NCBI RefSeq assembly: GCF_020715685.1 | Contig: NZ_CP085840.1 | Coordinates: 806,001-870,000 of the forward strand | Reading direction: 5' to 3' | Source of the DNA: Dermatobacter hominis | GTDB taxonomy: Bacteria > Actinomycetota > Acidimicrobiia > Acidimicrobiales > Microtrichaceae | DNA length: 64,000 nt | In this document: one piece after another, positions 14,887 through 54,410 of the stretch | How the letters are laid out: every line of letters starts with the position of its first letter | Numbering within the stretch: position 1 is the first letter of the stretch | Position numbers and translations under genes: made by a program | Notes under the pieces: model-generated | What the model was told of the DNA's origin: nothing | Seen by the model: the letters and a program-made list of their open reading frames with translations, nothing else | Database searches by the model: none

Positions 14887-15675
14887 GTGGACGACGGCGG
14901 GCGGTACGAGACGATCGAGTTCGAGGTGCGTGACCACGTGGCCACGATCACGCTCGACCGGCCCGACCGGATGAACTCGTTCGACCGGACGATGTGCGAG
15001 GAGCTGCAGGCCGCCTGGATCACCGTCCGCGAGACCGACGACGTCCACGTCGCGGTGCTGCAGGCCAACGGCGACCGGGCCTTCTGCACCGGCATGGACG
15101 TCAAGGAGGGCGTCTGGTGGCGTGACCAGAACATCTGGAACCACGTCGACCCGGGCGCCTACCTGGGACCCCGCTCCAACAAGGTGTGGAAGCCCGTGGT
15201 GTGCGCCGTGCAGGGCATGTGCGCCGGCGGCGGCCAGTACATGGTCAACGAGTGCGACATCGTGATCGCCGCCGAGGAGGCCACCTTCTTCGACCCGCAC
15301 GCCAACGGGTCGATCGTGTCGGCCGTCGAGCCGATCGGCATGCTGCACCGCGGCGTCCCGCTGGGCGAGGTCCTGCGCTGGGCGCTGATGGGCTCCGACG
15401 AGCGCCTGACCGCCGCCACCGCCCAGCGGATCGGGCTCGTGACCGAGGTCGTCACCGGCGGCGACCTCCGGGCCCGCGCCGCCGACGTTGCGGCGCAGAT
15501 CGCGGCGCGCGACCCGATCGCGATCCAGGGCACGGTCCGGGCCATCTGGGAGGCGACCGAGATGCCGCCATCCATGGCCAAGCAGAACGGGCTGCTCTAC
15601 ACGCACGTCGGGAACCGCCCGCCGGGCGAGCGGCTGGTGCAGCCGAAGCGCGAGGGCCCCCCGCACCTCCGCTGA
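14887..15675 (+). CDS. Enoyl-CoA hydratase/isomerase family protein
   Basis: Crotonase-fold protein of 262 residues. DRAFCTGMDVKEG (about 60-72) and the oxyanion segment QGMCAGGGQYMVNECDI are clear, and AVEPIGMLHRGVPLGEV follows. The GTG start at 14887 begins the conserved YETIEFEVRDHVATITLDRPDRMNSF segment and is placed directly downstream of a -10-like TACGAT; a longer in-frame extension upstream runs antisense to the regulator and is rejected. The adjacent divergent GntR regulator is the likely controller. No co-transcribed gene follows: a strong hairpin stands between it and the convergent MaoC gene. Confidence 0.93.
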   Translation: MDDGGRYETIEFEVRDHVATITLDRPDRMNSFDRTMCEELQAAWITVRETDDVHVAVLQANGDRAFCTGMDVKEGVWWRDQNIWNHVDPGAYLGPRSNKVWKPVVCAVQGMCAGGGQYMVNECDIVIAAEEATFFDPHANGSIVSAVEPIGMLHRGVPLGEVLRWALMGSDERLTAATAQRIGLVTEVVTGGDLRARAADVAAQIAARDPIAIQGTVRAIWEATEMPPSMAKQNGLLYTHVGNRPPGERLVQPKREGPPHLR

Positions 15676-15699: not shown

Positions 15700-15765
15700 C
15701 GCCCGCTCTGTTCCACCTTTTCGACGCTGTGACGTCGAAAAGGTGGAACAGAGCGGGCGGGGGTC
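15700..15765. repeat. Palindromic repeat element (26-bp stem), convergent intergenic copy
   Basis: 15700-15725 and 15734-15759 are perfectly complementary over 26 bases around an 8-base loop. The stem carries GCTCTGTTCC and its complement GGAACAGAGC. The right arm continues into GGGCGGGGGTC and touches the stop codon of the MaoC gene (15764). It can end transcription from both convergent genes, but lacks a T-run. The 21 bases at 15745-15765 recur with one mismatch at 53147-53167, so this is a dispersed repeat and not only a terminator. Confidence 0.85.
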
Positions 15766-17032
15766 AGTCGCGGAGGCGGTCGATCTCGTGCTCGAGCATG
15801 GCGTCGATCGAGTCGGCGGGCGGAGTCGGCAGCACCACCGGTCCGTGCTCCCGGCTGGGGAGCAGCACCACCGCGGTGCCCGGGCTCGTGACGACGCCGC
15901 GCTGGTTGGTCACCCGGATGTCGAGGTGGACCTCGGACCGCACGCCCTGGTCGGTGTCGACCCGGCGCTTGTCGGTGACCTCGCCGGTCAGCCACGACGC
16001 GTCGCCCATGAAGTTGAAGCGCCGGTGCTGGCACTCCAGCCGCCACAGCCAGGCGTCGTCGCCCATCCAGTCGGTCACGAGGTGGCAGAGCCACGCCTCC
16101 CGCAACCCGCCGTAGTCGTACGACATGGGCAGGCCCAGCTCGCGCGCCCGCTCGGGCTCCCAGTGGAGGCGCTGCACGGTGTCGGGCACGTTGAGCGAGT
16201 TGGGCGGGTACAGCCCCGGCGCCTTCTGCCGCACCTTCCACGCGAGGCGGAAGCTGCCCGGGGGCGTCAGCTGCATGCCCCAGCCGAGGTGCCACACCAC
16301 GACATCGGTGGTGGTCAGCGGGCCCTTCACCTTGCGGTCGAGCTCGTCGCCGACCTCGACGTCCTCGAACCAGCGCGGCTCGGCCCCGCGGCGCGACTCC
16401 GCGGCGTAGGCGGCGTCGATCTCGGCGAGCTGCTCGGGGGTGTACGGCTCGGCCAGCTGGTGGCGGTCATCGCGGTCCCCGGACCGCTCCTTGGACGCGC
16501 TGCGCTCGGTGTTGACCCACGTGCCGCGCCGGATGGCGTGCAGCCGGTCGTCCTGGTCGGCGTAGATGAAGTCGTGCGTGACGTGGGCGCTGCGGCCGCC
16601 GAAGTCGCTCCGCTTGTCCTGCACGCCGACCTGGGCGCGCAGGCAGCGGAGCCGGTCGCCGAGGTGGAGCGGTCGCCACCACTCGAACGCCATCACCGCC
16701 TGGTACGAGCCCAGCCCGGCGAACGGGTCGCCCCGCAGGACGGCCTTGTGCTCGGGCGGCGTCGGGCGGGGCGAGGCGTCCTCGCCCATCGTGTAGAGGA
16801 ACGCCGGCGGGGCGACGACGCCGCCCCAGCGCGAGGCCGAGGCGTGCTCCTCGTCGCAGTACAGGGGGTTGTCGTCGCCGTACCCGTAGGCGAAGTGCCG
16901 GATCCCGTCGCGCGACACCTCCAGGTTGTGCGGCATGTTCGGCAGCCGCACCGGCACGCCGATGCGCGACCGCGAGCGTTCGAAGCTCTCGTCGGTGAGC
17001 CGCCCGTAGTCCGCTGCGCTGGTGTCGGTCAC
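15764..17032 (-). CDS. MaoC-type dehydratase with two hot-dog domains
   Basis: Protein of 422 residues with an N-terminal FAS1-type dehydratase hot-dog domain (about 15-150, with FAYGYGDDNPLYCDEEHA as the substrate loop) and a C-terminal MaoC-like domain (about 200-400, VEVGDELDRKVKGPLTTTDVVVWHLGWG). Double hot-dog hydratases of this length are found in actinobacterial lipid and steroid clusters and hydrate or dehydrate bulky acyl-CoAs. The GTG start overlaps the stop of the LLM oxidoreductase (GTGA) and so the two are coupled. Which hydratase residues are functional is not certain: the first domain keeps an Asp-Asn pair in the loop, while a canonical His partner is not obvious. Confidence 0.9.
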   Translation of the reverse strand: MTDTSAADYGRLTDESFERSRSRIGVPVRLPNMPHNLEVSRDGIRHFAYGYGDDNPLYCDEEHASASRWGGVVAPPAFLYTMGEDASPRPTPPEHKAVLRGDPFAGLGSYQAVMAFEWWRPLHLGDRLRCLRAQVGVQDKRSDFGGRSAHVTHDFIYADQDDRLHAIRRGTWVNTERSASKERSGDRDDRHQLAEPYTPEQLAEIDAAYAAESRRGAEPRWFEDVEVGDELDRKVKGPLTTTDVVVWHLGWGMQLTPPGSFRLAWKVRQKAPGLYPPNSLNVPDTVQRLHWEPERARELGLPMSYDYGGLREAWLCHLVTDWMGDDAWLWRLECQHRRFNFMGDASWLTGEVTDKRRVDTDQGVRSEVHLDIRVTNQRGVVTSPGTAVVLLPSREHGPVVLPTPPADSIDAMLEHEIDRLRD

Positions 17033-51115: not shown

Positions 51116-52071
51116 GCGACATCCCCGCACCCGAGGAGATCGTCCGGTACGAGAAGGACGTGGCGAACAGGATCGCCACGATCACGTTCGACCGGCCGGA
51201 CCGCCTCAACGCCCCGACCATCGGCGCCCGCCGCCGCTACGGCGACCTCATCTTCAAGGCCAGCCTCGACGACGACGTCAAGGTCCTGGTGATCCGGGGC
51301 GAGGGCGACGACCTCGGGTCCGGCGCCGACCTCGACGAGCTCATGGCCAAGCGGGAGGGCGACGCCGCGCTGCGCGAGGAGTTCGGCGTCGAGGACGACG
51401 ACGACATCACGATGCCGCCGCCACGCAACTACCGGAACGGCGCGTCGCTCGTGCAGTGGTACGCCGATCCCCGGGCCGGTTGCCGGTCCCTGCAGGACTT
51501 CAAGAAGATCAGCATCCTCGAGGTCAAGGGCTACTGCTACGGCTGGCACTTCTACCAGGCCGCCGACGCCGATCTGGTGGTGTCGTCCGACGACGCGCTG
51601 TTCGGCCACGCCGCCTTCCGGTACGTCGGCTACGCGCCGCGGATGTGGCAGTGGGCGACGCTCATGGGCCTGCGGAAGTTCCAGGAGATGGTCTTCACCG
51701 GCCGGCCCTTCACCGCCGCCGAGATGGCCGAGCTCAACTTCATCAACAGCGTCGTGCCCCGCGACCAGCTCGAGGACGAGACAGCCAAGTACGCGATGGC
51801 GTGCGCGAACAACCTGCCCACCGACACGGTGTTCGCGCAGAAGGTGTTCTTCGAGATCATGAAGCAGCACCAGGGCGAGCACATGGGCAGCCTGATCAGC
51901 GCCTGGCTCGAGTCCATGCGGGGGCCGCTCAAGCCCGACGCCGACCGGTCGGTCATCGGCCTCGACCGCGAGACGATGGAGTCGGGGCTGAACAACGCGG
52001 TCAAGGGCAACGACCGGAACTTCCCGCCCGAGTGGCGGCTCTCCAAGTCCGGACGGGAGCAGCCCGAGTGA
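51112..52071 (+). CDS. Enoyl-CoA hydratase family protein
   Basis: Crotonase-fold protein of 319 residues, longer than average. GEGDDLGSGADLDELM (about 64-79) and KGYCYGWHFYQAADADLV replace the usual oxyanion segments, and an acidic insertion (REEFGVEDDDDITMPPP, about 88-104) is unusual. The C-terminal tail includes KSGREQPE. Substrate is unusual; it may act in ring hydration or another CoA step. The GTG start overlaps the preceding stop and the stop overlaps the CoA-transferase start. Confidence 0.88.
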   Translation: MSDIPAPEEIVRYEKDVANRIATITFDRPDRLNAPTIGARRRYGDLIFKASLDDDVKVLVIRGEGDDLGSGADLDELMAKREGDAALREEFGVEDDDDITMPPPRNYRNGASLVQWYADPRAGCRSLQDFKKISILEVKGYCYGWHFYQAADADLVVSSDDALFGHAAFRYVGYAPRMWQWATLMGLRKFQEMVFTGRPFTAAEMAELNFINSVVPRDQLEDETAKYAMACANNLPTDTVFAQKVFFEIMKQHQGEHMGSLISAWLESMRGPLKPDADRSVIGLDRETMESGLNNAVKGNDRNFPPEWRLSKSGREQPE

Positions 52072-54410
52072 GCTCCGACGCAGCGGTCCGGCCGCTCGCA
52101 GGGCTCGAGGTCGTCGACCTGTCGAGCTGGATCGCCGGCGCGTACTGCAGCCGGCTCCTCGCCGACGCCGGCGCCGCCGTCACGCGGGTCGAGCCCGACG
52201 GCGGCCACCCGCTGCGGACCTGGTCGGCCTCGGGCGAGTCCGCCGGCGCGCTGCACCGGCACCTGACCGACGGGCTCGCCGAGCGCCCGGCGGACGAGCT
52301 CGACGACGTCCTGGCCACGGCGGGAGCGTGCGTGTGGTCGCCCGGGGCCGCGTTGGACCCCCTCGCGATCCGGACCGCCCACCCGCACCTCACCGTCGTG
52401 GCCATCTCCCCCTTCGGGCTCGACACGCCCTGGAGCGACCGTCCCGCCACCGAGTTCACCCTGCAGGCCTGGTCCGGCGGGATCATCGGCCTGGGCCGCG
52501 GCGCCGCCGACCTGCCACCCGTGCACGTCGGTGGCCAGGTCGGCGAGTGGCTCGCCGGCGCCTACGCCGCGGTCGGGCTGCTGGCGGCCCTGCGCGACGG
52601 GGGCGGTGAGCTCGTCGACGTCTCGATGCTCGAGGTCCAGGCGATGTGCCTCACCTACTACCCCGTCACCTTCCACGACTCGTTCGGCCGTCCGATGCGC
52701 AAGCGCCGCGCCCTCACCGTCCCGGGCGTCGCAGCCGCGAGCGACGGGCTCGTCGGGCTCGGGGTCGGCACCGGCCAGCAGTGGCTCGACTTCTGCGTGA
52801 TGGCCGGCCACCCCGAGTGGGCCGAGGACGCCTCCCTGTTCACCGAGCGCGGCGCCCTCGCCGGGCAGATCGACGAGTGGGTCGGCGGGCAGACCGTGGC
52901 CGAGGTGCTCGACACGGCCTCCGCGTTCCGCATCCCCAACGCCCCGATCGTCGACGGCGCCAACGCCCCGACGATCGAGCACCTCCGCGAGCGCGAGGTG
53001 TTCCGCACCGCCGAGGACGGGACCGTCCGGCCCCGACCGCCGTTCCGTATCACGACCCCGACCGGCGCCGGTCCCGCCCCCACGCCACGTTCTGCCCCCG
53101 CGCCACGTTCTGTTCCCGGGACCTGGGGCGTTCGCCCCGGTCCTCGGGAACAGAACGGGCGGGGGTCGCCGTTCCGCGGGTTGCGCGTGCTGGACATGAC
53201 CGCGTACTGGGCCGGCCCGTCGGCCAGCCACCTGCTCGCCCTGCTGGGCGCCGAGGTCGTGCACCTCGAGTCGGCCCGCCGCCCCGACGGCGCCCGCCTG
53301 GTCGGCGGCCGGTCCCAGGACCTCGACCGGTACTGGGAGCAGGGCCCGATCTTCGCCGCCCTCAACACCAACAAGAAGAGCCTCACGCTCGACTTCGCCA
53401 AGCCCGAGGGGCTCGACCTCCTCCGCCGCTTCATCGCCACGTGCGACGTGGTGATCGAGAACTTCACGCCGCGGGTGCTCGATCAGCTGGGCTTCACCTA
53501 CGAGTCGCTCCGGGAGCTGCGCGACGACCTGATCGTGGTCAGGATGCCCGGCTTCGGGCTCGACGGGCCGTGGCGCGACAACGCCGCCTTCGCCTTCGTC
53601 ATCGAGGACGCGTCGGGCCTCACCTGGATGACCGGGCACCCCGAGCAGCACCCGGTCGAGCCGTACTGCACCGGCGACTCGAACGCCGGGCTGCACGCTG
53701 CCTACGGGCTGCTCCTCGCCCTCGCCCAGCGCGACGCGACCGGCACCGGCTGCCAGGTCGAGGCGGCGATGGTCGACGCCGCGCTCAGCATCACCGCGGA
53801 GCAGGTGGTCGAGCACTCGACGAGCGGCGTCCGCCTGGCGCGCGACGGCAACCGGGGTCCCGCGGCGGCCCCCCAGAACCTCTACGAGTGCGCCGACGCC
53901 GACGAGTACGGCCGCGAACCGGCCCGGGTGGCCGTTGCGGTCGCCACCGACGAGCAGTGGACGGCGCTGCGTGGCGCCCTCGGCGACCCCGACTGGGCCG
54001 CGGACCCCTCGCTCGACGACCACGCCGGCCGCCGGGCCGCGCACGACCTGATCGACGACCGGCTGCGCGAGTGGTGCGCGTCGAGGACTGCGGACGAGGT
54101 CATCGGGGCGCTCTGGAGCGCCGGCGTGCCGGTCGGGCGGGTCCTGCAACCGCACCGCCAGCCCGAGCTGCCGCCGCTGCAGGCGCGGGGCTTCTTCGAG
54201 GAGCTCGACCACCCGGTCATGGGACCGGCGCGGTACAGCACGATCCCGTTCCGCCTCGGCGGACGGCCCGAGGCGCTGCACCGGCGTCACGCTCCGCTCC
54301 TCGGCGAGCACACCGCCGAGCTGCTCGGCGAGCTGGGGCTCGGGCCGGCGGAGCTGGCGCAGCTCGAGGCCGACGGCGTGATCGCCACGGCCCTGGAGGG
54401 CGCCGCATGA
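52068..54410 (+). CDS. Fused CoA-transferase family III (CaiB/BaiF), two domains
   Basis: A 780-residue protein with two complete CaiB/BaiF-type domains: about 10-330 and 360-775. The C-domain has the catalytic Asp537 in CTGDSNAG; the N-domain reads VHVGGQVGEWLAGA at the same place (Gly155-Gly156), so only one active site is expected. The linker (about 340-365) is Pro/Arg rich and is encoded by a palindromic repeat of an intergenic type. It transfers CoA between carboxylates. The GTG start overlaps the preceding stop; the stop overlaps the KstD-like start (ATGA). Confidence 0.92.
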   Translation: MSSDAAVRPLAGLEVVDLSSWIAGAYCSRLLADAGAAVTRVEPDGGHPLRTWSASGESAGALHRHLTDGLAERPADELDDVLATAGACVWSPGAALDPLAIRTAHPHLTVVAISPFGLDTPWSDRPATEFTLQAWSGGIIGLGRGAADLPPVHVGGQVGEWLAGAYAAVGLLAALRDGGGELVDVSMLEVQAMCLTYYPVTFHDSFGRPMRKRRALTVPGVAAASDGLVGLGVGTGQQWLDFCVMAGHPEWAEDASLFTERGALAGQIDEWVGGQTVAEVLDTASAFRIPNAPIVDGANAPTIEHLREREVFRTAEDGTVRPRPPFRITTPTGAGPAPTPRSAPAPRSVPGTWGVRPGPREQNGRGSPFRGLRVLDMTAYWAGPSASHLLALLGAEVVHLESARRPDGARLVGGRSQDLDRYWEQGPIFAALNTNKKSLTLDFAKPEGLDLLRRFIATCDVVIENFTPRVLDQLGFTYESLRELRDDLIVVRMPGFGLDGPWRDNAAFAFVIEDASGLTWMTGHPEQHPVEPYCTGDSNAGLHAAYGLLLALAQRDATGTGCQVEAAMVDAALSITAEQVVEHSTSGVRLARDGNRGPAAAPQNLYECADADEYGREPARVAVAVATDEQWTALRGALGDPDWAADPSLDDHAGRRAAHDLIDDRLREWCASRTADEVIGALWSAGVPVGRVLQPHRQPELPPLQARGFFEELDHPVMGPARYSTIPFRLGGRPEALHRRHAPLLGEHTAELLGELGLGPAELAQLEADGVIATALEGAA
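53107..53167. repeat. Palindromic repeat inside the coding linker of the CoA-transferase
   Basis: 53107-53123 and 53139-53156 form an 18-bp stem with one bulge, with a nested GGGGC/GCCCC hairpin as loop. The right part 53147-53167 matches 15745-15765 at 20 of 21 bases. The element is in frame and encodes a low-complexity linker around residues 347-367. CGCCACGTTCTG is directly repeated just before and within it. Confidence 0.8.

Follow-up and report, generated by a model that had tools for sequence, protein, structure and literature searches.

How does a palindrome that otherwise lies between genes come to be translated as part of an enzyme, and did it make that enzyme by joining two genes into one? 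The question arose in a window (i.e., the whole stretch of DNA analysed) of 64,000 nucleotides from Dermatobacter hominis, in which a gene for a CaiB/BaiF (CoA-transferase family III) protein carries a long hairpin between its two domains. A sequence-only reading had proposed that a repeat lying between two once separate CoA-transferase genes had fused them and stayed behind as the linker. The window was compared with the rest of its own genome, with relatives of the enzyme and with sampled genomes of the order and phylum (G and L numbers are our handles for genomes and loci). The features concerned, in window positions, are as follows.

52068-54410, plus strand: two-domain CaiB/BaiF gene, 780 aa (gene call, Pfam, fused relatives)
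53053-53175, plus strand: stretch that encodes the linker and has an abnormal choice of codons (codon score, alignment of relatives)
53077-53112, plus strand: 18-bp tandem duplication, two units of CCCCCRCGCCACGTTCTG, 17/18 identical (sequence; neighbouring register from repeat search)
53109-53154, no strand assigned: 46-bp palindromic element, TCTGTTCC...GGAACAGA, with 20-nt arms and a 6-nt loop, codons 348-363
53106-53157, no strand assigned: the palindrome with its flanking stem extension CGT...ACG (inverted repeat, RNA fold)
15707-15752, no strand assigned: class B copy of the element, intergenic, between convergent genes

The palindrome and its host gene

The 780-aa gene starts at a GTG codon that overlaps the upstream stop codon. 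Pfam PF02515 (CoA_transf_3) matched each half of the protein, on either side of the palindrome. Codon usage collapsed at the palindrome stretch, with scores around codons 320-380 of -21 and -14 per 40 codons, whereas the rest of the gene scored about +4 to +22. Read in the frame of the gene, the copy is free of stop codons, and the segment that it encodes is rich in Pro, Gly and Arg. The two duplication units (53077-53094 and 53095-53112), at the element's left edge, are in frame and add six codons to the linker. The palindrome supplies part of a linker that, among relatives of the enzyme, is GC-rich, of low complexity and freely varying in both length and sequence.

The hairpin between the domains is real: 53106-53130 pairs with 53133-53157, and the predicted RNA fold has an energy of -64.1 kcal/mol, compared with -38.9 kcal/mol for shuffled sequences (z = -7.7). 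The stretch at 53147-53167 (GGAACAGAACGGGCGGGGGTC) agreed with that at 15745-15765 (GGAACAGAGCGGGCGGGGGTC) at 20 of 21 bases, with a single difference, and no further match within 3 mismatches was found elsewhere in the window or in 100 shuffles. The similarity noticed in the sequence-only reading is thus genuine and unique in the window, and the matching copy does lie in a convergent gap, between genes at 14887-15675 (plus strand) and 15764-17032 (minus strand). No described Rfam family matched the window above the gathering score.

A family of palindromes of constant length

The genome of D. hominis is a single contig of 4.66 Mb, in which copies were located by pattern searches and by two covariance models: R1, built without the CoA-transferase linker copy, and R2, built from 28 sequences that included relatives and that copy. 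At least 60 copies were found with R1 and about 77 with R1 and R2 together, both being minimum counts drawn from the best 150 candidates. The repeat could have turned out to have no other copies; instead, the element proved to be dispersed on a larger scale than had been apparent from the window, and 75 of the 77 copies are intergenic. The description of the repeat as one normally lying between genes, present here in frame and translated, therefore held.

Nearly all copies are exactly 46 bp long, with 20-bp arms, a 6-nt loop and conserved TCTG/CAGA ends; in order, they comprise an 8-nt end (TCTGTTCC or a variant), 12 nt, the 6-nt loop, 12 nt and an 8-nt end. The constancy of length was seen in several ways. 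For 33 of 34 extracted sites the best fit was a length of 45-46 bp, in nearly every case 46, and spans running from TCTGT to ACAGA in sampled regions measured 46 nt 43 times, with three other lengths occurring once each. A pattern search of the D. hominis genome that allowed 6-36 nt between the ends returned only 47-nt spans, plus a single one of 46 nt, and a few of the sites added by R2 were aligned by that model at 65 rather than 66 positions. The inner stems fall into several classes of equal length (CCCGGATCCTGGGG, ACCTTTTCGACG, ACCGGATCGACG and TCTGTCACGGCTGGCGG, and more with the wider model). The alignment of copies is gapless, and the inner pairs covary (0.443, versus 0.166 when shuffled), i.e., the stems vary by compensatory change. 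Across genera the covariation score was 0.730, versus 0.178 for shuffled alignments. Two identical 46-bp cores lie 3.2 kb apart, at positions 3804317 and 3807564 of the contig (G000:C1, L282), and are possibly a recent duplication. All six frames are open in 33 of 60 copies, compared with 26% of shuffled palindromes; a stop-free design is only suggested by this, because the copies are related and those free of stops may just be GC-rich.

The placement of the copies was far from even. Genes were called, approximately, by a codon-usage model that had been trained on the D. hominis genome itself. Of the 77 sites, convergent gaps hold 37, same-direction (tandem) gaps 33 and divergent gaps 5, and the remaining 2 are inside genes. 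The background was taken from these regions, which had been picked for containing copies: their element-free gaps of 60 nt or more were distributed as 11 convergent, 85 tandem and 51 divergent (chi-square p about 3e-13). Intergenic copies lie near gene 3' ends, at a median distance of 21-25 nt, with the preference strongest where genes converge. In tandem gaps the median distance was 21 nt to the upstream stop compared with 67 nt to the downstream start, and 32 of 33 elements were nearer the 3' end. Judged by placement, hairpins this close behind stop codons, oriented both ways between convergent genes, may terminate or protect transcripts: where it usually lies, the element would act as a 3'-end RNA hairpin, either ending transcription or stabilising the 3' end of the mRNA, as proposed for REPs. 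Alternatively, the element would simply spread without selection to the places where harm is least, and a distribution like this one could also result from nothing more than avoidance of promoters.

The family extends beyond this genome. R1 found related elements in 8 of 99 genomes, and R2 gave matches in 40 of 198 sampled genomes of the order (E up to 0.001); these searches were filtered, so that a genome with no match may still carry the element. In the best loci from 17 of the 40 matching genomes, the element was 46 bp long save in one (47 bp), and had TCTG/CAGA ends save in one. In the phylum as a whole, 9 of 296 genomes matched, five within the order and four outside, and the best sequences from outside were weaker or partly devoid of TCTG ends. 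Across the order the family thus combines a constant length of 46 bp and GTTCTG ends with hypervariable, paired inner stems that form genome-specific classes, with members in G001, G003, G005, G015, G046 and others (loci L115-L133, L181-L193 and L241-L257). Two copies, at 2781-2826 of L183 in G005 and 1511-1556 of L243 in G041, lie inside or at the end of genes predicted by the gene caller.

The probable linker insertion and the age of the fusion

Proteins related to the 780-aa enzyme were drawn from 60 related genomes and a named collection. All close relatives examined (46-73% identical) are single, continuous two-domain proteins; the fused proteins come from Acidimicrobiales, including a Microthrixaceae MAG (L194, on the same contig as G005), and from MAGs named Frankiaceae, Candidatus Frankia, Rhodococcus, Williamsia and Mycobacterium. 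A relative from a Dehalococcoidia MAG, at 30% identity, is also one two-domain protein. Neither R1 nor R2 detected the hairpin in the linkers of the fused relatives examined, and the matches of either model away from the focal gene in that search were weak or lay outside the fusion genes.

The linker segment very probably derives from a dispersed, REP-like palindrome that was inserted in frame when the enzyme was already a fusion. One copy would have entered the pre-existing, variable linker, and the tandem duplication at its left edge would have lengthened that linker further. The insertion would be tolerated, since its total length keeps the frame, it has no stop codon and the resulting Pro/Gly/Arg-rich segment lies between folded domains; its cost was presumably small, given how freely the linkers of relatives vary. 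That sequence was added rather than overwritten is suggested by the two nearest relatives (72-73% identical): within the aligned block their linkers are 79 and 73 residues long, compared with 93 here, a shortfall of 14-20 residues that is near the size of the element plus its flanks. At that level of identity there is no clean nucleotide-level empty site, and neither a target-site duplication nor a mobilising enzyme was identified.

Several more distant relatives (L195, L197, L198 and L204) have linkers of about the same length that contain no hairpin, and on their account the segment might instead be a replacement: in a linker that was already long, recombination or template switching with another copy of the repeat would have overwritten existing sequence with no net gain. 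The shorter linkers of the two nearest relatives speak against this, and we consider it unlikely, although it is the best placed of the alternatives to insertion.

The second of the two intragenic copies in D. hominis lies in the linker of dnaE2, which encodes an error-prone DNA polymerase (match to NCBIfam NF004225), at positions 1181807-1181852 of the contig (G000:C1, L145), behind the motif PDLNASAADATLE. Two other genomes, G015 (L225, 1087-1132) and G016 (L213, 4229-4273), have hairpins of their own, of 46 and 45 bp, in the same dnaE2 linker; these share TCTGT..ACAGA ends and differ in inner sequence, and most other relatives have a short dnaE2 linker with no hairpin. The three hairpins, in three genera, are all in frame, but each starts at a codon position of its own, as would be more likely after independent insertions or local shifts. 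In a dnaE2 tree, in which G015 was represented by only 19% of the kept columns, the three carriers did not form one group, a result still compatible with a single origin.

The recurrence of such hairpins in the dnaE2 linkers of three genera, together with the very stable fold of the CoA-transferase copy, might point to a selected regulatory element, e.g., a terminator or attenuator between the domains. The copies have not decayed either: strict pairing was found at 16-17 of 20 positions in both coding copies (CoA-transferase and dnaE2), within the range of intergenic copies. Against selection, the fused relatives have no hairpin, the copy sits in a linker that is hardly constrained and, inside a translated gene, the ribosome would be expected to melt the hairpin. 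A regulatory role in the CoA-transferase gene thus appears improbable, rather more so than overwriting.

Weaker still is the proposal that the repeat, lying between two separate CoA-transferase genes, fused them through the loss of a stop codon. Such an event is conceivable in principle, as the element usually lies just behind stop codons in gaps. However, all close relatives examined are already fused, with linkers free of the hairpin, so that the proposal would demand an independent second fusion in the D. hominis lineage. The repeat might also have been expected between the genes where the two domains are still encoded separately, but in the single such pair inspected (G050, L269) two adjacent CaiB-like genes abut, with neither gap nor repeat. 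We regard this origin as very improbable. Fused relatives without the repeat occur across several actinobacterial orders; the fusion is therefore older than the repeat at this site, and the palindrome, as judged from these relatives, did not cause it. What survives of the original idea is that the repeat supplies part of the linker; its supposed part in joining the genes does not. Finally, that a GC-rich palindrome arose by chance in a low-complexity linker, as the GC-rich, low-complexity linkers of relatives might suggest, can be dismissed, because R1, built without this copy, recovered it at 66.9 bits (E about 1e-12) and its length, ends and arm sequences are those of the intergenic copies.

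Relation to known repeat families

Insertion of an in-frame palindrome into an existing linker is an event of a known kind, with precedents in the RPEs of Rickettsia and in intragenic REPs, including those in DnaE2. The present case extends coding palindromes to an actinobacterial order, where an intergenic repeat adds residues to a two-domain enzyme with no part in the fusion; limited searches, mostly of literature outside subscription journals, found no earlier report of this and no such palindrome family in Acidimicrobiales. The family looks undescribed: it is length-locked, with a hypervariable stem, and was detected in 40 of the 198 sampled genomes of the order, with no GTAG/CGTC tag seen and no Y1/RAYT transposase found in the D. 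hominis genome. A constant length across genera, combined with an almost free inner sequence, requires a ruler, which may be a protein or lie in the processing of RNA or in replication. We put forward tentatively, and with rather more doubt than conviction, that these palindromes of 46 bp, with GTTCTG ends, inner stems that change pairwise and genome-specific classes, are an undescribed, length-locked class that a length-measuring enzyme or copying process has spread through much of the order, and that has repeatedly entered the dnaE2 linker. It is this length-locked family that merits further study, and it raises a testable question, i.e., what copies or maintains a 46-bp palindrome when no REP transposase is recognisable.

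Among known systems, intrinsic terminators share with the element a stable hairpin 20-25 nt behind stop codons, bidirectional in convergent gaps. They differ in having a U-tract, whereas no U-tract follows the hairpins here (the flanks are G-rich or C-rich, with no run of T), and the stem here is much longer and its outer sequence conserved. The conserved outer sequence, together with repeated, near-identical inner sequences, identifies a repeat family rather than a set of unrelated hairpins. MITEs are likewise small, non-autonomous repeats with inverted termini, but the element is far shorter than these and palindromic throughout, with no target-site duplication seen and no partner transposase identified.

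RPEs offer a parallel to the coding copies: these palindromes are inserted in frame, and tolerated, in genes whose proteins are conserved (Ogata et al., 2000; reviewed in PMC2229807). The CoA-transferase and dnaE2 genes, too, are otherwise conserved and have a repeat found throughout the genome in frame within their linkers. Compared by description, RPEs are 105-146 bp long and often intragenic (PMC2229807), whereas the element is 46 bp long and only 2 of its 77 copies are coding.

With REPs, as described by Di Nocera et al. (2013; PMC3733652), the element shares the form of short, dispersed palindromes lying mostly in convergent and same-direction gaps, near gene 3' ends and sometimes inside genes. 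The CGTC families described there have stems of 8-9 bp and loops of 4-5 nt, compared with 20-bp arms and a 6-nt loop here. The GTAG and CGTC superfamilies carry a tag at one end, whereas the present copies are single palindromes with TCTG..CAGA ends and no one-sided tag; no unpaired GTAG or CGTC tetranucleotide beside the stem was apparent on inspection of the alignments, and both ends of the element, CGTTCTG and CAGAACG, pair with each other. No match to the Y1/RAYT tyrosine transposase (PF01797) was found in the D. hominis genome (95.8% complete), with control genomes behaving as expected; CGTC REPs, too, are said to have no dedicated transposase. By the features compared, i.e., the lack of an apparent tag, a stem far longer than in CGTC families and the absence of a detectable Y1 transposase, the element is neither a GTAG nor a CGTC REP. 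DnaE2 is already listed among REP-carrying genes of other bacteria (Di Nocera et al., 2013; PMC3733652), and the dnaE2 hairpins are on that basis a recurrence of a known pattern. In the broad sense of the term, the element is what a REP is, a short palindromic repeat with a consensus, present in many copies that are mostly extragenic and near 3' ends, and the number of its copies, their palindromic form and their placement all suggest that it works like one.
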